Numbered from the stretch's first letter, positions 18,461 to 35,714 are shown. The stretch: DNA of 35,903 bases from a virus (IMGVR_UViG_3300045747_000060:1-35903); one strand, 5' to 3'. The notes: generated by a model from the letters alone, not told the origin. Translations and numbers: made by a program.

Positions 18461-18870
18461 ATCTTCGCCCCGATTACTTGATGTTTGATCTCAAACCCAA
18501 GACGCCTCCAAAGTCTAGCAACCGAGGGCCTGACAGCAGCCTCAACGGTCGTAGCACCTTCGATCTTGAGCATCTCTTTGAGTTGCTTCCAGTTTTCTGC
18601 AGTCGTGATCCCATTACCACCTAAAGCAGCAAGAAAAGCAGCCCGTTCATTGCGCCTGTTGTGCATTTGATAGGCCACGGCACCTATGCATACATAATGA
18701 TGCCAAGCAGCTATTACTGCGTACCGACCCTGTAAGATGTCTGACTTAAACTGATCGTCTGTCCACTCGCCACCGACAAAAGGTGTTACTTTCGCGAAGT
18801 GAGGAGCAAGATCGGGCCAGTATTGCGCACACTTCCATGTAGGAAGACGTTCAAGGCGGTGTGGGTTCAT
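18457..18870 (-). CDS. GNAT-fold acetyltransferase-like protein
   Basis: This 137-residue protein has helical N-terminal and beta central parts: ILQGRYAVIAAWHHYVCIGA has the strand order of a GNAT core. It ends with VRPSVARLWRRLGFEIKHQV, which matches the usual GNAT C-terminal substrate-side motif (LYxKLGF). The acetyl-CoA loop is not obvious, so activity is uncertain. GNAT-like internal virion proteins are known next to portal or ejection genes in short-tailed phages. It overlaps the genes on each side by four bases. Confidence 0.6.
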   Translation of the reverse strand: MNPHRLERLPTWKCAQYWPDLAPHFAKVTPFVGGEWTDDQFKSDILQGRYAVIAAWHHYVCIGAVAYQMHNRRNERAAFLAALGGNGITTAENWKQLKEMLKIEGATTVEAAVRPSVARLWRRLGFEIKHQVIGAKI

Positions 18871-21800
18871 ACGTGACTCATGGCCCAGTCAACTAACTTC
18901 TTCTTAGTCGCGTAGGAGTGACCTCCGTTGGCTTCTTTCTTGAAGGTATCAAGGACTGAGCGCATAGTGAGATGAGGTCCAAAACGTTTTACCAAGGCCT
19001 TGATAACGTGGTCGGGGATCTGCTCTTTATGCTCGTAAGTATCTACATTGATAAGACCTGTCACGTGACCTCCTTTTGCAAAATCTTGGTTTGGCCAACC
19101 TTTAATTTCACCGGAATTATCTGGCCATACCTGATCATTCATCGCTTTTATTTCTTCTACGGTGTGGTATTCTCCAGGTTTGACACCCTTACCCATCATG
19201 TGATCAAGCTCAGAGTTGTTCCAAACGTCAGACGTCTTACGAAGCCCTGTGTTCTGCATGTCTCCAATCTTGCCCCAGTTGCCAGACTTGACGAAGTCTT
19301 GAACAGCAGCCATGTCCTCAGGATCTGGCCTGCCGTTGCGGCGACCTTTGATTTCCTGGATAGACGGAGTCAGTGACTCTTTATCCATCCATTGCTTAGC
19401 CTCAGGATTCCACTTCCAGTTTTGAGCTAACGTATAACGTCTATTGATATCAGAAGACCCAAAGTGATCAAATATGGCGTTGATCTCTTCTGGCGCCATG
19501 TCTTGGGCATTCTTAAAAGGTGCATCACTTTGCTCGGTAAACTTAGGTGGCTTCACGGCGATCTGCACCTTTGGCTTTCCTGCGGCATCGTGCAAAATGT
19601 AGAGCTGGTTGCCATTACCTCCATAGTGCTGAGCCAAGCGGTTGACTTGAGTGCACCAGCCAGCATCCTTGCCAGCTCCCATGCAAAAGTTTAGTGCGTC
19701 GTCATTAGTCGCAGTGTCGGGAACTGCTTTCCAAGAGTGGCCTGAGTCATAGGTCTTGTGTGTTGGTACGTTGGTCTGGGCCCGAAGTGTCTTTGTCTGT
19801 TCTAGAATTTTGTTCCATTCGCCGGTCTTAGCTGCGATGTCAGAGACTGAAGACCTTGCGATGTCTGCATCTGTCAGATGCAAGTTGCGCTCGACTAAAG
19901 GAATGAAGTCATGGATGGGGGCATTTGGTTGCGCATTGGCGGCGGCAGCCCGCATGGCCTCAATGGATCCATGGTGCTCAAAGGCAATTCCTGCGTCATT
20001 GGCTTGGCCCATGTAGTCCATCATGTGCTGGAAGCCAAGACCTTGAGGGTCACCAAGACCGTAGATCTTTGTCTTTGGGTCAGTCTTATCAAGCCATTGA
20101 CGGCGCTTCAGGTACTCGACTTCACTGTTGATGCCGGCTGCCTCTTCTGGCTTTATGCCAGTGATTCCGCTGAGCTCGTCGATAGCACCACCAATCGTAT
20201 TGGTCTCTGGGCTGGCTCCTGTAGACCCAAGGTGCCAGTTGACTTCTTCGCCGGGCGTGTGGGTTCTAATGGCATTGTCTGAGAGGTTTTCCCAAGGGGT
20301 GCGATAATTGCGTCCGGTCGTCTCGTAGTGGAACTTGTCCGCCTTGCTGCTGTTTGGACGGATGCGGTACGCCGTGTTGCCGTCTCCGGCAGACGGATAG
20401 GGGGCTGCGCCGTACTCCTGTGCATTCAATTCCATCTGGTCCGGCGTCATGTGGAGACGACCTTCTTGCTCGAGTTTCAGAAGAGGGTCGTCTGCAGTAC
20501 CCATCTGGTTCCTGATGTAGTTCATAAGCTGCTTGTCGCGCCAGTTGTTAGGTGCCGTGTTGCTAGATCCAATTTCGTAGAGGTCCATGGCCTGTACTGG
20601 GTCGTGCTCGATCATCTCGGTCCAATTCCCGCCCTTAGGCTTCACTGCAAAAGCAGGCTGTGCAGGAGCAAGGACCTTGGCCAGAGCCCCTTCACCATGC
20701 ATACCAGCGTTCAGAATGTTTCCTGCGTGTCGGACAAGTGGGGCCCCTGCCTTTTCCACAAGCTTTCCGGCCGCTTTGAGCGGGGCTCCTACTCCGAGGC
20801 CACCGGCGTATGACGCCACATCAGCTGCCGCCTGTAATCTGGGGTCCTCAGAGGCTCCTGGGAGCCATTCCTTATAGAAGTCACTCGTAGGCAAAAACGG
20901 AGTGTTGCTGACACCAGGGATTAAGCTCCTGGCCAGTCCCTCAAGGTCTCCGGGCATACCCACTGTGCCGGCGAGCCAGCCGCGAGCCATTTGCTTCATG
21001 ACCTGTGTGGAATGCTCGTTCTGAAGGCGCTGTTGGCGGTCTCGGTCGACCTGACTTGTGGTCACTGCGCCACCTCCTGCGAAGCTCTGAGCTGCTGGCT
21101 TTGTGGTGTTCTTGCTGTCTGTCACCCACTCCTTGAAGTCATCGACGTGCATTGCAGTGACCGCTTTGGCTCCGTCCCAGCCGTTGCGGTAGTTGCCGTG
21201 GTACGCAGCCTTGGCTTCCTCAGGAGTTTTGAACCCCATCATGACTTTGTGCTCATCGAACTTGCCGTCTGTATCGTGCTGGTCGATGACATGGACTGGG
21301 ACTGTGCGGTCTTTGTAATCAGGGCCTAAGAACACGTCAACGTGATCTTTGTCAGCCCCTTTAGTGCCGCGAATGTAGCCGTAATCGTGCTGCATGCGAG
21401 TGTGCCACTCATCTCCGTCCTTGGACTTGCCGCTACGGACCGAATCTGCTGGGTTTTCGATGGAAATGTTGAGGCCGTGGGCCCAGACATGATCCTTCTT
21501 GTAGTTGCCGGCAGCTGCTTGAGCCTCAGTTGGTTGCACGCGGCCTCCTTGGGCGAAGTTGGGCTCTTCTGGACGCGGCGTAGTTGGTAGGTCAAGCAAG
21601 CCTTGATAGTCACCAACATGCCTACGAGCTTGGATTGTTGGAACACCTTGAGCTTCTAAAAATTGTGATGCTTCGCGTGGAGTCATATAGCCGGAAGGCA
21701 TGTCAAGGTTCTCGCCGTAGTTTTGGCCGCCCTCTCTGATATTGGTTTTCCCGCCTCTGAATTTTACAAGCCCGGTGTTCTGAAGGTCACCGACGTCTGC

Positions 21801-23336
21801 CCATTGACCTGACTTGACAAAGTCCTGGGCAAAAGGCTTGTAGCGGTCAGCAGGTGCAGCATTGCCTTTGCCTTTGATTTGGACGATACGGTCAGGACGA
21901 CCAGTATTGGATTCGCCACCATATTTACCGTAGTCAGGGGCTGTCTCGATTGTGACGTGAGGTTCTCCGGTCTTGGAATCGCGCAGACTGAAGATGCGAC
22001 TCCGTCCTGAGGCTACGTCGTCGCAGTAGCCACCAACGCAGTGGCCCATAGTGTCACCTTCGTATTTCAAAGCGTCTTTGAGGGTTTTATCTGAATACTC
22101 CGGGCGATGCCTGAAGAATCTGTCGATAGCTTCCTGTTCTGAGTCTGCAGACCATGATGTGCCATCACCCACAACTGCGTGTGTGCCAAGTGCTCCTTCG
22201 CCGCGCTTTTCTACTGTGAATCCAGGCGGTAACTCGCGCTTTGGAGCCTTCAACTCCACCCACTTGAAGCCCTTGTCGCCGTAGTCCTTGTGCAGAACTG
22301 TGGCCGCGTTGTTGGCCTTGGCAGCGTCTGCCGCCACCTTCTGCTCTTGGCGCCACGCATTGATCTTTGCCACGTGCTCAACGGCTTGAGGCATAGAGAC
22401 ACGATCAAGACTTTCAGGCCTCAACTGCAAATGTGCAGGCAGCCCGGAGGCTGGGTCTGTGGCATTGCGAAGTTCGTCTATGAGGTGCCTGAAACCTAGG
22501 TCTTGGCCCTCAGTCATGAGCGGAGAGATGCTGTGAACTTTGTCAGTCGGCCCTAGCTTTCCAAGCCATGGATTGGCAGAAGCCACTCTTTCTGCTTCGC
22601 GTTTACCAAAGTACTCAGTTAAATTACTGTGGTCTGGAGTGTCTATCACAGCGTCAGACGTGTTCTCCCACCGCCTGGCCAAATCAGAAACGGCTAGCTT
22701 CTGTGGTCCATCACCACTAGGGTGAACCATTCTGCCAGGGCTTAGCAGTTCTTCAGGGTTCACGTGCAGAGTTCCACGTTCAGCAAGGGCGCGGATGGGG
22801 TCTGTCGGTGTTGCCATCTCGTTCTTGATGTAGCGGGTCAGCTGCTTGTCAATGAAGCTGTTGACGGCTCTAGGAGCCTTCATGCCTTCTGCTTGGGCGG
22901 CAGTAAAGATCTCGCCAGAGGTTTGGTCTAAGAACCTGCCTCCTTCGTAGGGCTCAAGCACAGATGGAACTGGGTGGTACCCTTTCAGGCTTTTAAGTGA
23001 GTCCTCCACGCTTCCACTCAGCCAGTTCCCGCCCTTCATTTTGATAACGCCACGCTGGGCAGCACGCCCTCCGGACACTGGGCCTGGCATTTGTGCTACC
23101 TTGCTCAAAGGTCCTAGCAGCGGAGCCACCTGTGCGGCGATGCCAAGTGGGAAGCCGGCGCGTGCTCCAGCCTGGCGGTCAGCGGTCAGCGGATCCAGCA
23201 CGGAAGCATCGGACAGCTCGTCTGGTGCTGAGCCTGTCAACATAGACTCCAAGAACCCACTGACCTTAGGGTACTGCTTGGTCAGTTCATTGTGACCTTG
23301 GCCTGATGGCAGGATCTTGGCTTTACGTTTGTCCAT
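18867..23336 (-). CDS. Giant polyvalent protein: two PcfJ-like halves around an inorganic-pyrophosphatase-like domain
   Basis: This 1489-residue protein is built of parts. A first half (about 98-530) has KGGNW, DKQLTRYIKNEM, RRWENTSDAVI, LGFRHLIDELR and a PcfJ-like domain (MGHCVGGYCDD, RIFSLRDSKTGEPHVTIE, AQDFVKSGQW). Then comes a linker NFAQGGRV and a pyrophosphatase-like domain (about 605-745: NYKKDHVWAHGLNISIENP, HVDVFLGPDY, DEHKVMMGF). After a second linker (SFAGGGAV), a second divergent copy of the first half (899-1370) repeats the same order with LYILHDAAGKPKVQIAV and VQDFVKSGNWGKIGDMQNTG. A short tail follows FAKGGHV. Known of the class: polyvalent proteins of phages and conjugative elements enter the host with DNA and counter defences. 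Its exact targets are unknown. Confidence 0.78.
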   Translation of the reverse strand: MDKRKAKILPSGQGHNELTKQYPKVSGFLESMLTGSAPDELSDASVLDPLTADRQAGARAGFPLGIAAQVAPLLGPLSKVAQMPGPVSGGRAAQRGVIKMKGGNWLSGSVEDSLKSLKGYHPVPSVLEPYEGGRFLDQTSGEIFTAAQAEGMKAPRAVNSFIDKQLTRYIKNEMATPTDPIRALAERGTLHVNPEELLSPGRMVHPSGDGPQKLAVSDLARRWENTSDAVIDTPDHSNLTEYFGKREAERVASANPWLGKLGPTDKVHSISPLMTEGQDLGFRHLIDELRNATDPASGLPAHLQLRPESLDRVSMPQAVEHVAKINAWRQEQKVAADAAKANNAATVLHKDYGDKGFKWVELKAPKRELPPGFTVEKRGEGALGTHAVVGDGTSWSADSEQEAIDRFFRHRPEYSDKTLKDALKYEGDTMGHCVGGYCDDVASGRSRIFSLRDSKTGEPHVTIETAPDYGKYGGESNTGRPDRIVQIKGKGNAAPADRYKPFAQDFVKSGQWADVGDLQNTGLVKFRGGKTNIREGGQNYGENLDMPSGYMTPREASQFLEAQGVPTIQARRHVGDYQGLLDLPTTPRPEEPNFAQGGRVQPTEAQAAAGNYKKDHVWAHGLNISIENPADSVRSGKSKDGDEWHTRMQHDYGYIRGTKGADKDHVDVFLGPDYKDRTVPVHVIDQHDTDGKFDEHKVMMGFKTPEEAKAAYHGNYRNGWDGAKAVTAMHVDDFKEWVTDSKNTTKPAAQSFAGGGAVTTSQVDRDRQQRLQNEHSTQVMKQMARGWLAGTVGMPGDLEGLARSLIPGVSNTPFLPTSDFYKEWLPGASEDPRLQAAADVASYAGGLGVGAPLKAAGKLVEKAGAPLVRHAGNILNAGMHGEGALAKVLAPAQPAFAVKPKGGNWTEMIEHDPVQAMDLYEIGSSNTAPNNWRDKQLMNYIRNQMGTADDPLLKLEQEGRLHMTPDQMELNAQEYGAAPYPSAGDGNTAYRIRPNSSKADKFHYETTGRNYRTPWENLSDNAIRTHTPGEEVNWHLGSTGASPETNTIGGAIDELSGITGIKPEEAAGINSEVEYLKRRQWLDKTDPKTKIYGLGDPQGLGFQHMMDYMGQANDAGIAFEHHGSIEAMRAAAANAQPNAPIHDFIPLVERNLHLTDADIARSSVSDIAAKTGEWNKILEQTKTLRAQTNVPTHKTYDSGHSWKAVPDTATNDDALNFCMGAGKDAGWCTQVNRLAQHYGGNGNQLYILHDAAGKPKVQIAVKPPKFTEQSDAPFKNAQDMAPEEINAIFDHFGSSDINRRYTLAQNWKWNPEAKQWMDKESLTPSIQEIKGRRNGRPDPEDMAAVQDFVKSGNWGKIGDMQNTGLRKTSDVWNNSELDHMMGKGVKPGEYHTVEEIKAMNDQVWPDNSGEIKGWPNQDFAKGGHVTGLINVDTYEHKEQIPDHVIKALVKRFGPHLTMRSVLDTFKKEANGGHSYATKKKLVDWAMSHV

Positions 23337-24658
23337 TAGACTTTACCTCCGCGTGCGTAGTGATCTGCCACTTTGGGCAAGTTATTCGGGTCTGTCGTCC
23401 AGCTTCTGAGAACGTCTGGAAGCGACATTGCTGTGTGGCCATCAACATCAGGACCCAGGCTTTCAATGTAGTCTGCTAGATCCACGCGCGATGGCTTCTG
23501 CTTGACAAAAGCGTTGACCTTGGCTAATGGATTGTCAGGCTGGGCTGCCGGGACGTATTCTATGCCTAGGTTCTTCAGCTTCTTTTCTGTTGCTGTTGAT
23601 GGGTTGATGCCGTAGTCGTACACGCGGCCTATGTCCTGTGTTGTCAGCCCATGGCCCTGAGTCTCTACGTACCCAAACCCAGGGTTTCCGTTGATCATCT
23701 TTGGAATGTTTGGGATGTGCGCCTCTTCGTACGGTGCCAGCGGCAAGCCTTGCTCACCGAACCTGCGAGGTATCAGCCGTGCAAAGGACTCAACTGGTGT
23801 TCCACCGCGCGTCCTGCCACTTTCAATGCCGCGATAGCCTTGGTGGTTGATGAACTGAGAAAAGTCTGGGAACTCGTCTCTGAGCTGATCCATCAATTCA
23901 CGCTCCTGTGTGTTAGCCGCATACCGTTGTTCGTTAGTCCACCCAGTTTTGTCCTGTGGCTTAGCGTACCAACCACCGTACGGGTCGCTGCTGTGACACA
24001 GACCAAGCTCATCTGCTCTTTGGGCCTTCAGTTGTTTGAAGTGGTCGGTAAGGGCACCGATGGCTGAGTTCTCTTGATGGGCTCCATAGAACTCAGGCTG
24101 CCCTATGTTCTCAGACAGTTGATGCCATCTGCTACTGTCTAGGCTATCGCCCAGCGTGTAGGTCAACTTGCTCTTGTCGCGTGGCTCGAAGCCGTAGCGG
24201 CCATACTGAGAGATCATTGCATCAGGTTTGATGATGGTCCCACTGTCAGGATAGCTTAGTTCCAGCTTCCGCTTGGCGGGGGCAAACGGGTCTTCGCTCA
24301 GATGCCCGTATGTGGGGTTGCCACCGAACATGCTGGGCTCTGTCTGGCTGCGGAGTTCGATTGAAGGCTTTGCACCTGCTCTGGCACCTGTTCGCCCTGA
24401 CGTGTGGACGGTCTGCAACTCGCCGTTGGCTAAGAGATCTGTCAGGCTACGGCGACGCATGATTGCTGGCGCACTGCTGAGACGCTCAATCATCTGTGGG
24501 CTGAGATGTTCACCAACAGCTTGGCCCTCAGGCCCATGAGTTGATAACGCAAAGAGCTTTTGAAGTTGCGGATTGACTCCTAAGCTCTCACCAAGTGCAG
24601 GCAGCTTAGCTTCAAAAGCTTTGAGCATCGCACGTAGTGCCTCAAGAGGAAGAGGCAT
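23336..24658 (-). CDS. Probable ejected effector, polyvalent-protein associated, unknown fold
   Basis: The start chosen is ATG at 24658, with GGAG seven bases upstream; a GTG directly before it is too close. The 440-residue product has a helical N-terminus and a central segment (about 115-175) with TYGHLSEDPF and LTYTLGDSLDSSRWH. That segment recalls the ADP-ribosyltransferase-like / DUF3626 pattern YG...LTxGDS, though this likeness is weak. The C-terminus ends DHYARGGKV, sharing the A-x-GG motif of the 1489-residue protein. The stop overlaps that gene's ATG (TAATG). It is therefore probably co-made and co-delivered with the polyvalent protein. Confidence 0.5.
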   Translation of the reverse strand: MPLPLEALRAMLKAFEAKLPALGESLGVNPQLQKLFALSTHGPEGQAVGEHLSPQMIERLSSAPAIMRRRSLTDLLANGELQTVHTSGRTGARAGAKPSIELRSQTEPSMFGGNPTYGHLSEDPFAPAKRKLELSYPDSGTIIKPDAMISQYGRYGFEPRDKSKLTYTLGDSLDSSRWHQLSENIGQPEFYGAHQENSAIGALTDHFKQLKAQRADELGLCHSSDPYGGWYAKPQDKTGWTNEQRYAANTQERELMDQLRDEFPDFSQFINHQGYRGIESGRTRGGTPVESFARLIPRRFGEQGLPLAPYEEAHIPNIPKMINGNPGFGYVETQGHGLTTQDIGRVYDYGINPSTATEKKLKNLGIEYVPAAQPDNPLAKVNAFVKQKPSRVDLADYIESLGPDVDGHTAMSLPDVLRSWTTDPNNLPKVADHYARGGKV

Positions 24659-24671
24659 CACTGAACTCCAA

Positions 24672-24705
24672 GAGAAAAAGCCCCGGGCTTTAAGGGCTCG
24701 GGGCT
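24672..24705 (-). terminator. Rho-independent terminator after the large terminase gene
   Basis: A stem pairs 24679-24690 with 24694-24705: seven perfect outer pairs (AGCCCCG/CGGGGCT), then mostly GC or GU pairs and a three-base loop. On the minus strand it is followed by TTTTTCTC. It sits before the 440-residue gene and partly next to that gene's ribosome site, so it may partially attenuate rather than fully stop transcription. Confidence 0.78.
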
Positions 24706-24751
24706 AAGAGGCGGGCAACTGCACTGAAGCCACTCTGGAGACGAGTCCATT

Positions 24752-26425
24752 CTAGCGCCCGTAGGGATTCTGACGGCCGTGTTTTTGTGCATAGTAATCA
24801 ACCTCATCGACGGGATCTTCGGGTACCGCTTCAAGCTCTAAGAACCCAGAGTCACGCATGTAGATGCAAGCCTGTGTGAATGTATCCACAAGGTCGTCGT
24901 GTTCCCCGTTCGGAAACTCGTCGCACTGCGTGAGCAGTGGCCTTGCCCAAGTGACTGCCTGCCCAGGATCGCGCTTCGACTCAAGCACATAGAACATATC
25001 TGCTTCCAGGAATGGAGCTGTCATATGGGCTCGTGCGATCTTGTCGGCACGTCCTGGGTTGTAAGCCACAATTGGTAGGTTTATATCACGTAGGTCTTGG
25101 ATGATGGATTGTCCGCTGGCCTTTTGCTCCACGAGTATGACGTCTGGCTTACGGCTTGGGTGCAGCGGATCGTCTTTAACCCCACCGTAAGGGGCCTTCC
25201 AGTCGTCCATGAGCTTCTTCTTGAGCTTCCCGTACTTCAGATGATCGGTCCAAGCGTCTAGCAAGATGGCGAACTTCTTGCCCTTGGAGTCTCCGAACTC
25301 GTGCTCACCGATGCCCCACACGGTCCCAGCACTGGGATCACCCTCCACCTTCTCAGTGAACGCTGTGTCATAGGACTGCAGCACGAAGAAGAGGTCTGGG
25401 AGCCTAGCCTTGGCCGGCCAGAATACGAAGTGGCCTGACTGCAGGATGCCGCCACCGGCTGGAGAAGGTCTTTGCGCCAACTGACCTGCTGCTCCATAGT
25501 CGCCGAGACTCCTCTTGAGCGTCTTGACGGTTGGCGCGTCAAACCGAGCTGGCCACAAGAGTTCACCCTCTTCACGCCTAGGATCTTTGAACCCGAGCTT
25601 AGTGACACAGGCTCTAGCCTTCTCATACTCCATTGGGAGCATCAAGTGTGTCCAACCACCTTGCTCAAGTACGTGGCCGCTCAGATCCTTCTGGTGGAGC
25701 CTCTGCATGATGATGGCCATAGCACCAGTAATCGGATCGTTGAGACGAGAGATGATGCCTTCGTCGAACGTGGTGAGAGCAGCTTCGCGCTCAGCCTCAG
25801 AGTGTGCGCCGTTGCGGTCGTGCGGGTCATCGATGAGCACAGTGTCGCCGCCGTCGCCCATCACGCCACCCGTCATACCGAAGGCGATGCGGTAACCCAT
25901 CTCGCTGTTCTGGAACCTGATCTTCTCATTCTGGTCTGAGGCCAGCGTGAACTTGTGACCCCAATGCTTCTTGAACCACGCCGATGTGACTAGGCGCCGC
26001 ATCTTCAAGTTGTCTCTGATGGCGAGCTTGGCAGCATAGGACCCACACAACCACTGATGGCTCGGGTCGTGGATCCAGGTCCATGCCGGCCACGCCACTG
26101 ATGTGATGGTTGACTTCGAGGTTCGGAAGGGCACGTTGATCAGCAGCCGAGTGATCTCGCGGCGGCTCACTGCTTCCAAGTGTTCTGAGATGGCCCTGAG
26201 ATGCCAGTTGTCGACGAACTCACGGCCTGGCTCGATGATGGGCCAAGCGCACTGAAGGAAGGCGTGGAGCGAGGACTCACACAGACGGCGCTCGATCTCG
26301 TCGAGCATGTTGTACACACCCAGCTTGGTATCACGGCTAATGGGGCCACCTGTGAGAGCCTGGATCTTAGGAATCTTGAAGTTCGGCTTAGTCTTAGTCC
26401 CCTGCAGCGATGTGGGGATCTTCAT
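24752..26425 (-). CDS. terL: Terminase large subunit
   Basis: This 557-residue motor protein packages DNA into proheads. The N-terminal ATPase has an unusual Walker A (NVPFRTSKST, about 97-106), where most relatives have a GKS/T loop ending, and a Walker B-like TVLIDDPH (about 196-203). The C-terminal RNase-H-type nuclease shows SYDTAFTE (Asp353), FAILLDAWTD, DVILVEQKASG (Glu433) and GEHDDLVDTF (Asp510/511), the expected acidic metal ligands. Its ATG overlaps the stop of the small subunit (ATGA), and a weak ribosome site supports coupling. Confidence 0.93.
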   Translation of the reverse strand: MKIPTSLQGTKTKPNFKIPKIQALTGGPISRDTKLGVYNMLDEIERRLCESSLHAFLQCAWPIIEPGREFVDNWHLRAISEHLEAVSRREITRLLINVPFRTSKSTITSVAWPAWTWIHDPSHQWLCGSYAAKLAIRDNLKMRRLVTSAWFKKHWGHKFTLASDQNEKIRFQNSEMGYRIAFGMTGGVMGDGGDTVLIDDPHDRNGAHSEAEREAALTTFDEGIISRLNDPITGAMAIIMQRLHQKDLSGHVLEQGGWTHLMLPMEYEKARACVTKLGFKDPRREEGELLWPARFDAPTVKTLKRSLGDYGAAGQLAQRPSPAGGGILQSGHFVFWPAKARLPDLFFVLQSYDTAFTEKVEGDPSAGTVWGIGEHEFGDSKGKKFAILLDAWTDHLKYGKLKKKLMDDWKAPYGGVKDDPLHPSRKPDVILVEQKASGQSIIQDLRDINLPIVAYNPGRADKIARAHMTAPFLEADMFYVLESKRDPGQAVTWARPLLTQCDEFPNGEHDDLVDTFTQACIYMRDSGFLELEAVPEDPVDEVDYYAQKHGRQNPYGR

Positions 26426-30312: not shown

Positions 30313-30354
30313 TTGCAAATAGTTGTTTACAAGCATCAATTTACCCACTATAAT
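30313..30354 (+). promoter_or_regulatory. Early promoter copy 1
   Basis: TTGCAAATA at 30313-30321, then four bases, -35 TTTACA at 30326-30331, a 17-base spacer and -10 TATAAT at 30349-30354. It drives the 136-residue gene through a leader ending in GCTGAGGA. This is the best-formed member of a four-copy family. A TTTGCA/TGCAAA inverted pair overlaps it. Confidence 0.85.
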
Positions 30355-30412
30355 TCATACATGCACAAACAATCCTGAATGTGCAAACCACCTAAACGCT
30401 GAGGACCTTATC

Positions 30413-30823
30413 ATGAACATGTCAAACGCCGCCAAGTACACCGCCCGCGACTCTGCAACAGCAGCTCTCCGTAAAATCGGGGTTTTCAAATGCGACTACG
30501 ATGACTTCATCATCAAGCGCGACGGTACCTTCTACTGCGACATCGAAGGTGCTAAGATCTTCGTCTCCAAGCAGAATGCCACGGCACCTGTGATTGCCCC
30601 CATCGCCGTGGCACCAGCCCCTGTTGTTAAGGCGGCTAAGGTCAAAGTCGAAGGTAAAGTGTCAGTGTCTAACCTGATCCGGACGGCCATCTTGGAAGGC
30701 AAGTCTAACCAGGAAATTTGGGATGCCATGGGCCCCAACGGTTCTGGCCTGATTGAGCAGAAGCACCACCACTATGCTTCTTGGTATCGTTGCGAACTGC
30801 GTCGCAAAGGTCACAACGTCTAA
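30413..30823 (+). CDS. Early phage protein with SNLIRTAI-type C-terminal domain, unknown function
   Basis: The start is ATG 30413; a longer frame would begin inside the promoter, and GCTGAGGA lies upstream of this ATG. The 136-residue product has a helical N-terminus (ARDSATAALRKIGVF), an Ala/Pro/Val linker (about 57-80, APVIAPIAVAPAPV), then VSNLIRTAILEGKSNQEIWDAM and HHYASWYRCELRRKG. The C-terminal piece recurs in many phage early proteins and may bind DNA or RNA. The role is unknown. Confidence 0.75.
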   Translation: MNMSNAAKYTARDSATAALRKIGVFKCDYDDFIIKRDGTFYCDIEGAKIFVSKQNATAPVIAPIAVAPAPVVKAAKVKVEGKVSVSNLIRTAILEGKSNQEIWDAMGPNGSGLIEQKHHHYASWYRCELRRKGHNV

Positions 30824-30941
30824 GAGCCAAGTGGGAAGACCCTGGGAACAGGGCTCTTCGATGAAAGAACTGTGGGTGAGTACACCTTAAACAAGGCGAC
30901 CGCGAATGAGTGGAGTGGCCAGCAGTTCTTTCACCGAAGAG
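30822..30941 (+). other. Structured non-coding segment with 19-base inverted arms
   Basis: After the stop, CCCTG-GGAA-CAGGG (30840-30853) forms a GNRA-type hairpin, with an outer AAGAGCC/GGCTCTT pair (30822-30828 with 30852-30858). Then CTCTTCGATGAAAGAACTG (30854-30872) pairs with 30923-30941 with one mismatch over a 50-base loop that itself contains GGTG-AGTA-CACC. No tRNA-like T-loop and no open frame are present. It ends one base before the next promoter's TTGCAAATA. It could be a terminator lacking a T-run, a small RNA or an RNA-level regulator. Confidence 0.55.
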
Positions 30942-30942
30942 A

Positions 30943-30984
30943 TTGCAAATAAGTGTTTACATCCACCTGAAAGCTTGGTATAAT
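30943..30984 (+). promoter_or_regulatory. Early promoter copy 2
   Basis: TTGCAAATA (30943-30951), four bases, TTTACA (30956-30961), 17 bases, TATAAT (30979-30984). It drives the DUF2786 gene. The transcript leader begins with TCAATCTTACCAACC, nearly the same as in copy 3, and ends GCTGAGGACCATT before ATG 31021. Confidence 0.88.
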
Positions 30985-31020
30985 TCAATCTTACCAACCA
31001 ACCTTATGCTGAGGACCATT

Positions 31021-31710
31021 ATGACAAATACCCCTGACGAAAAGATCCTGAACAAAATCAAGAAGTGCTTGGCACTGTCTGCATCTTCTGAACCGCACGA
31101 AGCAGCTGCTGCAATGCGCCAAGCTCAGAAGCTCATGGAGATGCACGGCATCAGCCAAATCGACGTGCAACGCTCGGACATCGGTGAAGCTAACGTGAGC
31201 AGCAAGGTTTCTGTGAGCAAGGTGAACCCTTGGGAGCTGAAGCTCATGGCAACTGTGGCAGATGCCTTTGGTTGCAAGCTGTTGTGGATCCCTAGCTACA
31301 GCTGGTCCTCGGATGTTTATGGCCGCTATACTTTCATTGGTCTGAAGAGCCAGATTGAGCTGGCGCAGTACACGGCTGAAGTCATGCAGCGGAAGCTCAT
31401 GAAGTCTCGTGCTGCTTTCGCCAAGAGCCTTCCATCCTCTGCGTCTCGCGCGTTCAAGAGTGCCCAGCTCGACGGCTTCTGCCTTGGCTGGACGGTCGAA
31501 GTTAAGAAGACCGTGCATGCATTTGCCCTGTCCAAAGAGACCGAGCAGATGATCACTGAGTACGTCAAAGAGAAGTCCACTGGTAAGGCCAAGTCCAGCA
31601 GCAAGCAGTACGGGACCTCTGGTATGGCTGCTGGCCGTGAAGCAGGAGCCAACGAATCTATCCACCGTCCCATGGGCCAGCGTGCGGCAAACCTCATGAT
31701 TGGAGCCTGA
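31021..31710 (+). CDS. DUF2786 protein
   Basis: The start is ATG 31021, behind the GCTGAGGA leader; an upstream ATG in the same frame lies before the promoter. The 229-residue protein has a DUF2786 motif at about 6-44 (ILNKIKKCLALSASSEPHEA followed by AMRQAQKLMEMHG). A longer region contains FGCKLLWIPSY, RYTFIGLKSQIELAQYT and KSAQLDGFCLGWTVEVKK. It matches the architecture of many phage and bacterial DUF2786 proteins. The function is not established; DNA-related roles have been suggested by its common place in replication modules. Confidence 0.85.
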   Translation: MTNTPDEKILNKIKKCLALSASSEPHEAAAAMRQAQKLMEMHGISQIDVQRSDIGEANVSSKVSVSKVNPWELKLMATVADAFGCKLLWIPSYSWSSDVYGRYTFIGLKSQIELAQYTAEVMQRKLMKSRAAFAKSLPSSASRAFKSAQLDGFCLGWTVEVKKTVHAFALSKETEQMITEYVKEKSTGKAKSSSKQYGTSGMAAGREAGANESIHRPMGQRAANLMIGA

Positions 31711-31711
31711 T

Positions 31712-31906
31712 ATGAAGAAACGCCAGTTCACAGAGGGCCAAATCATGAACTGGGTTCTTTATGAACTCATTCGGTCTGGAAGCGTGTACAACATGTTAGA
31801 CCCGCGCGCCATCAAAATGTCTGGCCTGTCTAAGGAAGACTACATGTTCGTACTGAAGAATTACAGTGAATTGAAAGAAGCTTACAACACTACGAAGGCA
31901 AAATAG
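31712..31906 (+). CDS. Small early protein, unknown
   Basis: ATG at 31712 has GGAG six bases upstream, just after the TGA of the DUF2786 gene. The 64-residue product begins MKKRQFTEGQIMNWVLYELI and is mostly helical and basic, ending YNTTKAK. It is likely translated from the same transcript as DUF2786. No recognised motif, but its HTH-like size and charge make nucleic-acid binding possible. Confidence 0.62.
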   Translation: MKKRQFTEGQIMNWVLYELIRSGSVYNMLDPRAIKMSGLSKEDYMFVLKNYSELKEAYNTTKAK

Positions 31907-31907
31907 C

Positions 31908-31949
31908 CTGCAAATAGGTGTTTACAAATCGCCTTAGCCACAGTATAAC
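31908..31949 (+). promoter_or_regulatory. Early promoter copy 3
   Basis: CTGCAAATA (31908-31916), four bases, TTTACA (31921-31926), 17 bases, TATAAC (31944-31949). Upstream element and -10 each have one change from the consensus. It begins right after the TAG of the previous gene and drives the 96-residue gene via GCTGAGGATTATC before ATG 31980. Confidence 0.85.
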
Positions 31950-31979
31950 TGAATCTTACCAACCACGCTGAGGATTATC

Positions 31980-32270
31980 ATGATTACACCTGCACACCGC
32001 CGAGCCTCCAGGGTCAGCAATGCTCTGGAAGCCACAATCTGTGGAATCCCTTGCTTGATTGAGGTCGAGACCTGCAACGTAGTTCAAGGCAGCTACAGCT
32101 ACAACGCTGCTTCTGACATGGACTACCTAGGCTACTATGAAATTGAGTTCACTGTCCTAGACCGTAAGGGCTATCCGGCCCGCTGGCTCGAGGGCAAGCT
32201 CACGGACTCTGGACGCGCAGACATCGAGGCCCTTATCTTGGAAAACCACGAGGAACAACTTGAAGACTAA
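31980..32270 (+). CDS. Early protein, unknown
   Basis: This 96-residue protein begins MITPAHRRASRVSNALEATI and has a beta-rich middle (GIPCLIEVETCNVVQGSY, MDYLGYYEIEFTVLDRKG). The end is acidic (LILENHEEQLED). ATG follows a GCTGAGGA ribosome site in the repeated early leader. No family is recognised. Alternation of strands and a short helix suggests a small alpha/beta domain. Confidence 0.7.
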   Translation: MITPAHRRASRVSNALEATICGIPCLIEVETCNVVQGSYSYNAASDMDYLGYYEIEFTVLDRKGYPARWLEGKLTDSGRADIEALILENHEEQLED

Positions 32271-32357
32271 CAAGCAGGAGGATCCCAGCTTTGCCAAGCT
32301 GCCAAGCTGCAGGGCGGGGAACCTTACACTGGGAACCAACAATATAAAGGCAGCGGA

Positions 32358-32474
32358 ATGGTCCAGTGGTGTGCCCTGTGCGGCGTACACCGCGGCCAAC
32401 TAGGAGGCTCTGTCCGTCGCATGATGGGTGGAAGGTTCTGGGTCTGCAAAATGCACTCAAAGGAAACCAAATGA
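32358..32474 (+). CDS. 38-residue zinc-ribbon-like peptide
   Basis: A short frame with AAAGG about seven bases upstream starts MVQWCALCGVHRGQLGG and contains WVCKMH. CALC plus CKMH would give a C-x2-C...C-x2-H zinc site in a very small fold. The TGA stop overlaps the next gene's ATG at 32471 (ATGA). This coupling, a ribosome site and the spaced ligands support it as a real gene. The role is unknown; tiny zinc peptides often bind host proteins. Confidence 0.58.
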   Translation: MVQWCALCGVHRGQLGGSVRRMMGGRFWVCKMHSKETK

Positions 32475-32704
32475 CTTACTCAATACAAAAGCACGTTGAC
32501 CCATACTATCCCTCTATTGAGGGCTTGGAGTTGATTGTAAACGACTGCGTTCAGGCGGTCATCAAGACCAAGGGCCAGAAGACAGATTTGGTATTTGCCA
32601 TGAAGGGCCCTCTTGATTTGGAGCTAGCCAGACCTATCATAGTAGGTCTCCTTGACCTGCTCGTGCATTACGACAAAATGGCCCATAAACGTGGAAAAAG
32701 CTAA
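32471..32704 (+). CDS. Small early protein, unknown
   Basis: ATG at 32471 is chosen over a longer frame because it overlaps the TGA of the zinc-ribbon-like peptide (ATGA), and GGAAACCAA stands before it. The 77-residue product begins MTYSIQKHVDPYYPSIEG and has helical LIVNDCVQAVIKTKGQ and IIVGLLDLLVHYDKM. It is of unknown function and may be translated with its upstream neighbour. Confidence 0.6.
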   Translation: MTYSIQKHVDPYYPSIEGLELIVNDCVQAVIKTKGQKTDLVFAMKGPLDLELARPIIVGLLDLLVHYDKMAHKRGKS

Positions 32705-32755
32705 TCTGCTGCGGCGTAGAATACGATTCTCTTAACTGATCTTGAAAGGATCAAC

Positions 32756-33001
32756 ATGCGCTGCTACTTAGTTACCGCTAAAGCCAACGACGATCAAGTG
32801 CTTGGGCGCCGAATTGCTTCGACAAACGCCGATGCTCGTGCTGTTCGTGAAGACCTCATGGAGACGTTTGGCGTTAAGAAGAAGGACGTCGAGATCGAAA
32901 ACCATGAGGTGCCTGTGGCCAAGCCGGACCTCCTGTCCTACATCAACGACCTCCTGGCTCACAACGACATTACCATTGAGGAACAAGAAGCCGATGACTA
33001 A
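32756..33001 (+). CDS. Small early protein, unknown
   Basis: AAAGGA lies seven bases before the ATG. The 81-residue product begins MRCYLVTAKANDDQVLGRRI and has helical STNADARAVREDLMETFGVK, ending acidic (TIEEQEADD). It overlaps the J-domain gene by eight bases. A TAGAATAC -10-like box about 40 bases upstream (near 32717) resembles the one before the 27634 gene, though no matching -35 is seen. No family is recognised. Confidence 0.68.
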   Translation: MRCYLVTAKANDDQVLGRRIASTNADARAVREDLMETFGVKKKDVEIENHEVPVAKPDLLSYINDLLAHNDITIEEQEADD

Positions 33002-33269
33002 GCACCACGCTATTCTTGACGCCGCACCAGGGTGCGGCACAGAAAAGCTCAAGGCCCGTTGGAGGGCTTTGGCTAGCCAACATCATCCAGACCGTGGAGG
33101 AAACCCATTGGAGTTCAGCACCTTCAGGAACGCTTATCAGGCAGCACTCAAGTACGAAGCTACTGAAGAAGCCAAGTGCAAGAAGTGCGGCGGAACTGGG
33201 AAAGTCTTGTTTGGCAATGGGTTCAACAAGATCAGTATGGTTTGCCCGCTGTGTAAGGGCACCAAATGA
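32994..33269 (+). CDS. Mini J-domain protein with C-terminal DnaJ-type zinc finger
   Basis: ATG at 32994 overlaps the upstream stop; 91 residues. A truncated J-domain has KARWRALASQHHPDRGGNP (the HPD loop between helices II and III), then FRNAYQAALKYE. The C-terminus carries CKKCGGTGK...CPLCKGTK, a single CxxCxGxG zinc finger pair as in DnaJ. The order is J-domain, then zinc finger, without the usual Gly/Phe linker or substrate-binding domains. In the family the HPD loop activates Hsp70 ATPase; it probably redirects host DnaK to phage proteins or replication complexes. Confidence 0.8.
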   Translation: MTKHHAILDAAPGCGTEKLKARWRALASQHHPDRGGNPLEFSTFRNAYQAALKYEATEEAKCKKCGGTGKVLFGNGFNKISMVCPLCKGTK

Positions 33270-33358
33270 GTGGCTACAGAAAAGCTATGCTTATACTTTA
33301 TGTGGCATGCTTTTAGGGTCTATAGTTACTTTCTATGACGTCTTTATCTGGAGGCCAA

Positions 33359-34243
33359 ATGATATTCAAACCAATGCTAGCGGCAACAATCGAAGATACC
33401 TCGACTCTGAAATACCCACTCATTGTCAGTCCGAAGCTGGACGGAATCAGGGCAATGATTCACGGGTCGGACGTCGTTTCAAGGAACCTAAAGCTAATTC
33501 CAAATAGGGCAATTCAAGAGATATTTGGACACATCCAAATGGACGGGTGGGATGGTGAATTGGTTGTTGGGAGCCCTACAGATAAAAACTGCTTCAATAC
33601 AACGTCTAGTGGCATTATGAGCAGGGACGGCGAGCCAGAGGCCGTACTGTACGTCTTCGACATCTTCATTGAAAACGTGGGCTTCCAAGATCGCTATAGC
33701 AGGCTGCTGTCAGAGGTTGACAAAATCAAGCACAACTACGTAAAGGCTGTTCCTCACATGGTCTGCATTAGCCAGAAGGACCTCAGGGACTCAGAAAACG
33801 TCTTCCTAAAGCAGGGTTATGAGGGCCTTATGGTAAGGTCGTCGGACGGGTTGTACAAGCAAGGAAGATCTACTGCTAAGCAGGGTTGGCTCATGAAGCT
33901 GAAGCAGTTTGCTGATGCTGAGGCCGAGATAATAGGTATCGAGGAGCAGCTCCACAATGGTAACACAGCAATTAAAAATGCGCTCGGGCAGCTTGAAAGA
34001 TCTTCTAAAAAGGAGGGCCTTACCGGAAAGAACACTCTGGGTGCTCTCAAAGTCCGCGGAATTAATGGGGCTTTCAAAGGAGTGGAATTCAGCATTGGAA
34101 CAGGTTTTGACGACGACCTTAGAGCCGTCATCTGGGGAGATAAAAACTTAATCGGTAAAATAGTCACCTACAAGTATTTTCCAATTGGGTGCCTTGAGGC
34201 TCCGCGCTTTCCAGTATTTTTGAGGTTTCGAAATGACCTTTAG
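33359..34243 (+). CDS. ATP-dependent DNA ligase (T7-like)
   Basis: The 294-residue product from ATG 33359 has GGAGG four to five bases upstream; an in-frame ATG 24 bases earlier lacks one. Motif I SPKLDGIRA holds the nucleophile Lys26. DGELVVG (motif III), VLYVFDIF (IIIa), EGLMVRSS (IV) and GWLMKLKQF (V) follow in order. A C-terminal OB-like part (GALKVRG, VEFSIGTGF, VTYKYFP) completes the minimal ligase. It seals nicks during phage replication or repair. Size and order match short viral ATP ligases such as T7 gp1.3. Confidence 0.94.
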   Translation: MIFKPMLAATIEDTSTLKYPLIVSPKLDGIRAMIHGSDVVSRNLKLIPNRAIQEIFGHIQMDGWDGELVVGSPTDKNCFNTTSSGIMSRDGEPEAVLYVFDIFIENVGFQDRYSRLLSEVDKIKHNYVKAVPHMVCISQKDLRDSENVFLKQGYEGLMVRSSDGLYKQGRSTAKQGWLMKLKQFADAEAEIIGIEEQLHNGNTAIKNALGQLERSSKKEGLTGKNTLGALKVRGINGAFKGVEFSIGTGFDDDLRAVIWGDKNLIGKIVTYKYFPIGCLEAPRFPVFLRFRNDL

Positions 34244-34403
34244 ATGGCCAGAACTTCCTCAGCCGCGCAGTCGCGCAACTGTTCTTGTGAAGCTGCCTAA
34301 GGAGTATCCAACTCCAAAGACAAAGCCGCCAAGACCTACGTACATGACCACAAAGAAAACCCTTGCTAAAAAGGCGCACTTGTTTTGTGAGTCTTGCAAA
34401 TAA
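34233..34403 (+). CDS. 56-residue basic proline/lysine-rich peptide
   Basis: The frame starts ATG 34233, GAGG seven bases upstream, and overlaps the ligase end by 11 bases. Its product, MTFRWPELPQPRSRATVLV then KPPRPTYMTTKKTLAKK, ends LFCESCK with a CxxC. The TAA stop lies inside the TTGCAAATA element of promoter copy 4. High Lys/Pro content suggests nucleic-acid or host-protein binding, but this is speculation. Overlap and ribosome site support it. Confidence 0.58.
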   Translation: MTFRWPELPQPRSRATVLVKLPKEYPTPKTKPPRPTYMTTKKTLAKKAHLFCESCK

Positions 34404-34435
34404 CTATTTACAAATACCTGAAAGCTCAGTATAAT
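34394..34435 (+). promoter_or_regulatory. Early promoter copy 4
   Basis: TTGCAAATA (34394-34402), four bases, TTTACA (34407-34412), 17 bases, TATAAT (34430-34435). It drives the DUF932 gene through a longer leader (about 55 bases) ending GCTGAGGATCATT before ATG 34491. The element overlaps the previous gene's stop. Confidence 0.88.
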
Positions 34436-34490
34436 CTAACCATACCGCGGCAATAGTGCAACGGTCAACTTAAGAAAGCTGAGGATCATT

Positions 34491-35462
34491 ATGGTAGCTG
34501 CAGTAACAACCCGCAAGAATGGCTTCGCTGAGATGGCCTACGTTGGCGAAACTCCATGGCACGGTCTGGGCCAAGCCCTGGCTGCTGGTGCTGACATCGA
34601 GACCTGGAAGCAAGCGGCCGGCATGGACTGGAAGATCGGCCGCAGCCGTGTCCGTTACGGTGAAGGCGCCAACCAGCAGATCTTCGAAGATGCTCACGTT
34701 CTGTTCCGCTCGGACACAAAGTCTGCCCTGGGCATTGTTAGCCCCAAGTACAAAACCGTCCAGCCTGGCGAAGTGCTGGAGTTCTTCCGCGACCTTACTG
34801 AAAGCCAAGGCTATGTCCTCAATACTGCGGGCACTCTTTTCGACGGCAAGCGCTTTTGGGCGCTGGCTAAGGTTGGTGACGACGCTGTGGTTGTTGGTGA
34901 TGATCGGGTCGGTGGTTATCTTCTTCTTTCTACTAGCTGTGACGGCACACTCGCTACAACGGCTAAGTTCACGACTGTTCGTGTGGTTTGCAACAACACA
35001 TTGTCGATGGCTTTAAGCAAGAGCCTGTCTAACAAAGGTAGCTTCACCCTGAAGCACACCAGCAAGTTTGACCCTCGCGAGGCTAAGGACACGCTTGGCT
35101 TGGCTACCGGCCAATTTGCTGAGTTCATGGCTGCGGCCCGGACCCTGTCCAAGAAGACGGTGACAGCTGCCAGGGCCGCTGAGTTTGTCGAGTCCTTGCT
35201 GATTGACACTAAGACGGTCCTAGGCGAAGATGCCCGCAAGAGCCGGCAGTTCAACAAGATTATGGACCTCTTCAAAGGCTCCGCAATGGGCGGTACTTTG
35301 ATGGGAGCCGAAGGCACAATGTGGGGCGTCCTGAACAGCGTGACTGAGTTCGTGGATCACAATGCGCGGTCTCAGACTGTAGATGCTCGCCTGGCCTCTG
35401 CTTGGTTTGGCCGCGGCGATGCTTTGAAAACCGAGACGTTAGAACGTGCGCTGGCTGTCTAA
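34491..35462 (+). CDS. DUF932 phage/plasmid-like protein
   Basis: The 323-residue protein matches the DUF932 (TIGR03299-type) family along most of its length. Marks are AYVGETPWHGLGQAL (about 16-30), GIVSPKYKTVQPGEVLEFF (about 82-100), GYLLLSTSCDGTLATTAKFT, then RVVCNNTLSMAL (about 165-176). This family is common in phages and plasmids; its function is unknown, though links to DNA replication or recombination are often proposed. It is expressed from its own early promoter. Confidence 0.92.
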   Translation: MVAAVTTRKNGFAEMAYVGETPWHGLGQALAAGADIETWKQAAGMDWKIGRSRVRYGEGANQQIFEDAHVLFRSDTKSALGIVSPKYKTVQPGEVLEFFRDLTESQGYVLNTAGTLFDGKRFWALAKVGDDAVVVGDDRVGGYLLLSTSCDGTLATTAKFTTVRVVCNNTLSMALSKSLSNKGSFTLKHTSKFDPREAKDTLGLATGQFAEFMAAARTLSKKTVTAARAAEFVESLLIDTKTVLGEDARKSRQFNKIMDLFKGSAMGGTLMGAEGTMWGVLNSVTEFVDHNARSQTVDARLASAWFGRGDALKTETLERALAV

Positions 35463-35555: not shown

Positions 35556-35714
35556 GTGAAGCGCATCACCGTGCCAGTCCACGAGGACATCGACAAGATC
35601 AGAGAGCAGATTCTGCTCGACACCGGCATCAAGATGACCTACGGCCAGGTCTTCAACTGGTTGATTCATTTTTACAAGCAGCACAAGACGCTGACTACGT
35701 GGAGAGCGAAATGA
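35556..35714 (+). CDS. Ribbon-helix-helix (Arc/CopG-like) DNA-binding protein
   Basis: The GTG start at 35556 has GGGAG about eight bases upstream. The 52-residue product has KRITVPVHEDIDKIREQI (strand then helix) and MTYGQVFNWLIHFYKQH (second helix), the strand-helix-helix pattern of Arc/CopG dimers. Its stop overlaps the next ATG (ATGA). Small RHH proteins commonly repress their own operon; hairpin arms just upstream could be its site, which is inference. Confidence 0.68.
   Translation: MKRITVPVHEDIDKIREQILLDTGIKMTYGQVFNWLIHFYKQHKTLTTWRAK

Follow-up and report, generated by a model that had tools for sequence, protein, structure and literature searches.

Likely sigma-70-type early promoters with an AAATA block and a TTTACA -35 box in a virus fragment and its relatives

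We analyzed a 35,903-nucleotide (35.9-kb) virus fragment, hereafter the window, in which four sites of common layout are likely to be sigma-70-type early promoters for the host RNA polymerase, with AAATA at -44..-40 as a proximal UP element. In the proposed mechanism, AAATA would be contacted by the C-terminal domain of the alpha subunit, TTTACA would serve as the -35 box and TATAAT as the -10 box, and the leader would provide a strong ribosome site, GCTGAGGA. Each unit would turn on a small cassette of early genes, and no phage regulator would be required. Such an array would explain how the early programme starts with neither a phage polymerase nor an obvious regulator, and its layout is a ready search pattern for the early genes of this phage group.

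The positions and spacings given for the four sites by the initial annotation proved to be exact (Table 1). When both strands of the window were searched with the composite pattern (upstream element, TTTACA, spacer and -10 box) allowing up to three mismatches, only these four sites were retrieved and no fifth copy was present; no match appeared in 100 dinucleotide shuffles of the window. Every copy is followed by GCTGAGGA 5-7 nt upstream of an ATG, and the ATGs at 30413, 31021, 31980 and 34491 open real ORFs. As had also been noticed, ATCTTACCAACC follows the -10 box in copies 2 and 3. The statement that the spacers differ held only in part, as copies 2 and 4 have ACCTGAAAGCT in the same register. 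This points to a common origin, so that any case for selection must rest on relatives: selection on the boxes cannot be argued from the window copies themselves, and is borne out by the related genomes.

Table 1. Promoters, leader features and the first early gene in the window
Feature	Positions	Strand	Details
Early promoter P1	30313..30354	+	TTGCAAATA; TTTACA 30326-30331; 17 bp; TATAAT 30349-30354; predicted +1 30361
Early promoter P2	30943..30984	+	-35 30956-30961; -10 30979-30984; predicted +1 30991
Early promoter P3	31908..31949	+	CTGCAAATA; -35 31921-31926; TATAAC -10 31944-31949; predicted +1 31956
Early promoter P4	34394..34435	+	-35 34407-34412; -10 34430-34435; predicted +1 34442
P1 leader hairpin, TGCACA...TGTGCA	30362..30385	+	from predicted +2; z -3.4
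P4 leader hairpin, ACCG...CGGT	34444..34465	+	z -2.1
Ribosome-binding sequence GCTGAGGA	30398..30405	+	gene 1
Ribosome-binding sequence GCTGAGGA	31008..31015	+	DUF2786/DUF7168 gene (ATG 31021)
Ribosome-binding sequence GCTGAGGA	31967..31974	+	YuA_Gp49-family gene (ATG 31980)
Ribosome-binding sequence GCTGAGGA	34478..34485	+	DUF932 gene (34491-35462)
Gene 1	30413..30823	+	136 aa; conserved orphan early gene

The minus-strand ORFs, which extend up to 27.4 kb, include those for the small subunit of terminase and for what appear to be virion proteins, and the plus-strand side carries a primase and small early genes (DUF2786/DUF7168, YuA_Gp49-family, DnaJ-like, ATP-dependent ligase and DUF932). The late gene block also encodes a 1489-aa protein with PcfJ-like and InPase domains (18867-23336, minus strand). 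The closest relatives are the IMG/VR contigs G001 (DUF932 protein 89% identical), G002 and G003, and the named relatives are Stenotrophomonas phage AXL_3 (Axeltriavirus AXL3), Pseudoxanthomonas phage PW916, which is filed under Mesyanzhinovviridae, and MW202621. Megablast of the window against named phages gave no direct match, and Rfam and tRNA scans returned no matches.

Conservation was examined in 14 related genomes or fragments by a Shine-Dalgarno-anchored search (CTGAGGA, start codon and ORF), in which candidates were scored by TTNACA/TATAAT with a cut-off of at least 9 of 11, the upstream element and the third -35 base (-33) being neutral. A total of 53 promoters passed; T was present at -33 in all 53, and the spacer was 17 bp in 49. 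Position counts were taken from 40 non-redundant sites with the 17-bp spacer. In the upstream block, A occurs 40 times at -44, 40 at -43, 33 at -42 and 37 at -40, and T 40 times at -41. The other columns gave T34 at -37, G31/A9 at -36, A20/C13/T7 at -45, G26 at -46, C30 at -1 and A27 at +1. TTTAC is almost invariant and the -35 box is never TTGACA. Thus, AAATA, the T-R dinucleotide (TG/TA) at -37/-36, TTTACA, the 17-bp spacing and TATAAT are strongly kept in the relatives, TTG (-48..-46) is weakly kept, and the C of TTGC is not kept. Since AAATA alone persists across the 40 sites, the whole of TTGCAAATA was rejected as a conserved unit, and the suggestion that a regulator binds it is not supported in that form.

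When the collection was scanned with TTTACA-N17-TATAAT-N20-50-GCTGAGGA, an A/T block was found at every promoter-like match of this phage family, and the TTGACA version of the scan gave no match from the family. A looser rule applied to the clade genomes yielded T at -33 in 47 cases and G in 0. In the 14 related genomes or fragments, it is early genes that such promoters precede; no promoter scoring at least 9 lies in the mapped late genes (assigned by homology in G001, G002, G003 and G018, and by inspection in the window). The reading of the four sites as coordinated early promoters is thereby supported. In a low-GC phage contig (G005, 19.7-34 kb), several promoters have a common spacer TCACCAATCAATAACA and leader GGTCCTACACAC and are apparently recent promoter duplications.

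The proximal subsite of UP elements, from -45 to -37, is bound through the minor groove (PMC2613000). A/T-rich sequence is present within this interval at the 40 sites and, as in the proximal UP element of host sigma-70 promoters (Estrem, Ross, Gourse), adjoins the -35 box (PMC2613000). Compared with a generic UP element, the phage sequence is stricter and its logo has no strong distal subsite; the T at -41, invariant in 40/40 sites, counts against the UP reading. The T4-like early promoters offer a closer parallel, with an A-rich block at -44..-40 that resembles a UP element and GTTTAC at -36..-31 (PMC1524935); those of T4 itself have been described as strong UP/-35/TGn/-10 promoters (PMC2988021). 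The 40 sites share with T4 and the T4-likes (Straboviridae) the A-rich block, the G at -36 within GTTTAC, and TATAAT at 17 bp. They share TTTAC with T4 and most hydroxymethylase-bearing T4-likes, as well as the occurrence of many copies before small early genes and, in the mapped genomes, siting before early genes rather than in the late module. It is this layout (A-rich -44..-40, GTTTAC) that makes a UP element the best reading of AAATA. Unlike T4, the present phages belong to another group, carry AAATA with the invariant T at -41, lack the extended -10 TGn (C in 21/40 at -15, G in 14/40 at -14), and have a 5'-terminal hairpin and a GCTGAGGA leader. Inverted repeats occur in many early promoters of 44RR, CC31 and RB49, lying inside the spacer in RB49 (GGGGATC..GATCCCC) and flanking the -10 box in 44RR and CC31.

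The fixed T at -33, where the consensus has G, and the near-pure A/T spelling of these promoters probably reflect cytosine-modified phage DNA. At a -33 G:C pair, sigma residue E585 contacts the template C; the template base at -31 is contacted by R584 (PMC2613000). With G at -33, the template C read by E585 would be a modified one, and at -31 sigma would read an unmodified template G; the modified-cytosine model accounts both for the C kept at -31 and for the G avoided at -33. Of the 13 relatives, only the G004 fragment lacks a thymidylate-synthase-family protein; for the window, whose contig ends before the hydroxymethylase gene, we infer the enzyme from the 12 others. In this family, Asp marks dCMP enzymes and Asn marks dUMP enzymes (T4 gp42, thymidylate synthase). 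The residue aligned with D179 of T4 gp42 is Asp in all 12 clade enzymes, which would make them of the dCMP type; it is likewise Asp in T4, CC31, STML-198 and 44RR, and Asn in SPO1, ViI and YuA. On this ground, hypermodified thymine was rejected as the cause. The AXL3 enzyme (L091, 24942-25751) and its PW916 equivalent are annotated as thymidylate synthase or dUMP hydroxymethyltransferase, yet they carry the dCMP-typical Asp.

Among the T4-likes, the T:G ratio at -33 is 88:16 in phages with a dCMP hydroxymethylase (T4 26:6, RB69 21:1, CC31 14:1, STML-198 13:3, 44RR 14:5) and 10:84 in those without one, that is, with no over-threshold second thymidylate-synthase-family member (RB49 2:55, RB43 4:9, Aeh1 4:18, KVP40 0:2). 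The pooled Fisher p of 1e-27 is descriptive only, because the compared phages share ancestry and their counts are not independent. Acinetobacter phage AB1I1T, which has the enzyme, shows T at 19 sites and G at 1. The preference for T therefore holds in T4, RB69, CC31, STML-198, 44RR, AB1I1T and the AXL3/PW916 clade; it fails as a strict rule for all hydroxymethylase phages, as G predominates at -33 in Pseudoalteromonas phage XG4 despite a D-type enzyme. Two unrelated contigs (G005 and G011) combine an Asp enzyme with T at -33, although they are not a random sample because they were recruited by a search for TGCAAATA. YuA, ViI, RDJL2, Elanor and 83-24 had too few promoter-like matches for this comparison.

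AXL3 DNA was cut by 2 of 37 enzymes, TasI and Tru1I, whose sites (AATT and TTAA) contain A/T only; its authors left the modified base unnamed and called gp28 a thymidylate synthase (PMC7504290). The digest fits modified G/C pairs. That modification can shape how promoters are spelled has a precedent in the silenced GATT MotA boxes of T4 (PMC2988021). No statement of a link between -33 and modification was found in the accessible literature on early promoters and hydroxymethylcytosine or on AXL3 promoters, a scope outside which many subscription papers fall, including the original T4 early-promoter papers. We tentatively propose, as a plausible idea that stops short of being probable, that unrelated cytosine-modifying phages converged on a near A/T-only code, AAATA-nnTG-TTTACA-N17-TATAAT, in which a bulky cytosine group would block E585 at -33 and minor-groove UP contacts would compensate. 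If such convergence is true, cytosine hypermodification could be recognised in the sequence from position -33. Should the -33 link hold, the odd TTTACA of T4-like early promoters and modified cytosines become one testable rule, and modified-DNA phages could be guessed from promoter spelling alone.

The same promoters could instead owe TTTACA to a modified RNA polymerase, such as T4 Alt produces, or to shared ancestry rather than to DNA modification, an explanation that we consider rather unlikely. T at -33 has earlier been tied to the ADP-ribosylated alpha subunit in T4, but RB49 and Aeh1 carry alt-like genes and yet use G (PMC1524935), and the window proteins that were compared with Pfam included no ADP-ribosyltransferase. 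Ancestry is common to many of the compared phages, and XG4, with G at -33 despite its D-type hydroxymethylase, speaks for this explanation; against it, T at -33 also occurs in phages without evident T4 relation (the AXL3/PW916 clade, G005 and G011).

It is improbable, in our view, that the upstream element and the -35 box form an operator through which a dimeric phage or host regulator switches all early cassettes. The consensus, being imperfectly palindromic, leaves room for a regulator: the dyad TTGnAAATA-NN-TRTTTnCAA, centred at -38.5, is the most self-complementary of 38 centres (0.60; next 0.43), two features outside the sigma-70 boxes fit it (the TTG of -48..-46 and the A found at -29), and T at -41 never varies. 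Four unrelated phage contigs with TGCAAATA-N4-TTTACA (L005, L008, L013 and L035) have, over the -35 box, the perfect palindrome TGTTTACA-TT-TGTAAACA. However, pairing at -45/-32 is seen in only 17% of sites and at -41/-36 in only 23%, and the dyad matches are at the level of independent columns (0.60 observed, 0.61 expected), with no covariation beyond composition. Moreover, TGC is gone in most relatives, and T4-likes share the block without such a regulator. The initial annotation had called for a protein bound to the element; our sequence search returned no clade-wide candidate with a recognisable DNA-binding domain. The sole RHH-like candidate (RITVPV...; ORF 35556-35714, and 24651-24848 in G001) occurs in only two genomes, the window and G001, has no Pfam or PHROG match and was rejected as a clade-wide regulator; gene 1, with no detectable DNA-binding match, was rejected as well. 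The TyrR box is TGTAAA-N6-TTTACA. The window sites have equal spacing and are one mismatch away (TGCAAA), but TGT is not kept in the relatives (see column -45 above) and TG only partly, and the TyrR dyad is not present.

Recognition by an alternative sigma factor, or by one that the phage encodes, is very unlikely: the -35 box differs from TTGACA at all 40 sites, but the -10 box, the 17-bp spacing and the CA start are ordinary sigma-70 features, and the scanned proteins, a minority of those in the window, included nothing sigma-like. The least probable explanation, that the copies are recent duplications of one promoter whose conservation means little, could draw on the ACCTGAAAGCT and ATCTTACCAACC shared among window copies, but as a sole cause it is refuted by cross-genome conservation, since the boxes are retained in diverged relatives (for example AXL3 and PW916, whose primases are ~49% identical) with unrelated spacers and leaders.

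The leaders behind these presumed host-read promoters fall into two classes, as P1 and P4 start with a hairpin and P2 and P3 have short unstructured leaders. A 5'-end hairpin (stem of at least 5 pairs, at least 3 of them G-C, starting within the first nucleotides) was found in 18 of 33 non-redundant leaders of sufficient length, versus 3.2 expected from shuffles. In the gene 1 leader, two pairs are changed on both sides across four phages, a result equalled by 29 of 500 shuffles; with four sequences, such covariation would be supportive rather than conclusive for the hairpin. Structure at the 5' end of an RNA hinders RppH and RNase E (reviewed in PMC3997798), which makes mRNA protection a likely role, and the P1 and P4 hairpins probably protect the RNA. 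As in known 5'-terminal stabilising stem-loops, the stem starts at +2, right where the 5' end is predicted (PMC3997798); in contrast to them, it is repeated over a phage early regulon, its sequence changes, and the P2/P3 class does without it.

In 12 of 13 related genomes, a relative of gene 1 was detected downstream of a promoter-like site, which is a full-strength promoter (score of at least 9) in 8. The protein has an N-terminal RDSAT..LRK..DY domain and a C-terminal LILDGKTN.EVW...YP.WYR domain, and had no match in Pfam or PHROG, no convincing one among PDB sequences and none by fold (model pTM 0.38). A conserved structured RNA or cruciform follows gene 1 at 30835-30941 (plus strand) and also its orthologs in G001, G002 and G003 (L066, L067 and L079); it has no Rfam match. 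It consists of a GAAGA-CCCT..AGGG hairpin and then CTCTTCG-[long stem]-CGAAGAG, in which the sequence of the long stem varies by phage and the pairing is kept, with 9 of 19 pairs changed on both sides. Its covariation score was matched by 0 of 500 shuffles, and the folding z ranged from -5.6 to -6.6 in the four phages. GAAGACCCT could alternatively pair with AGGGCTCTTC, which suggests a possible switch.
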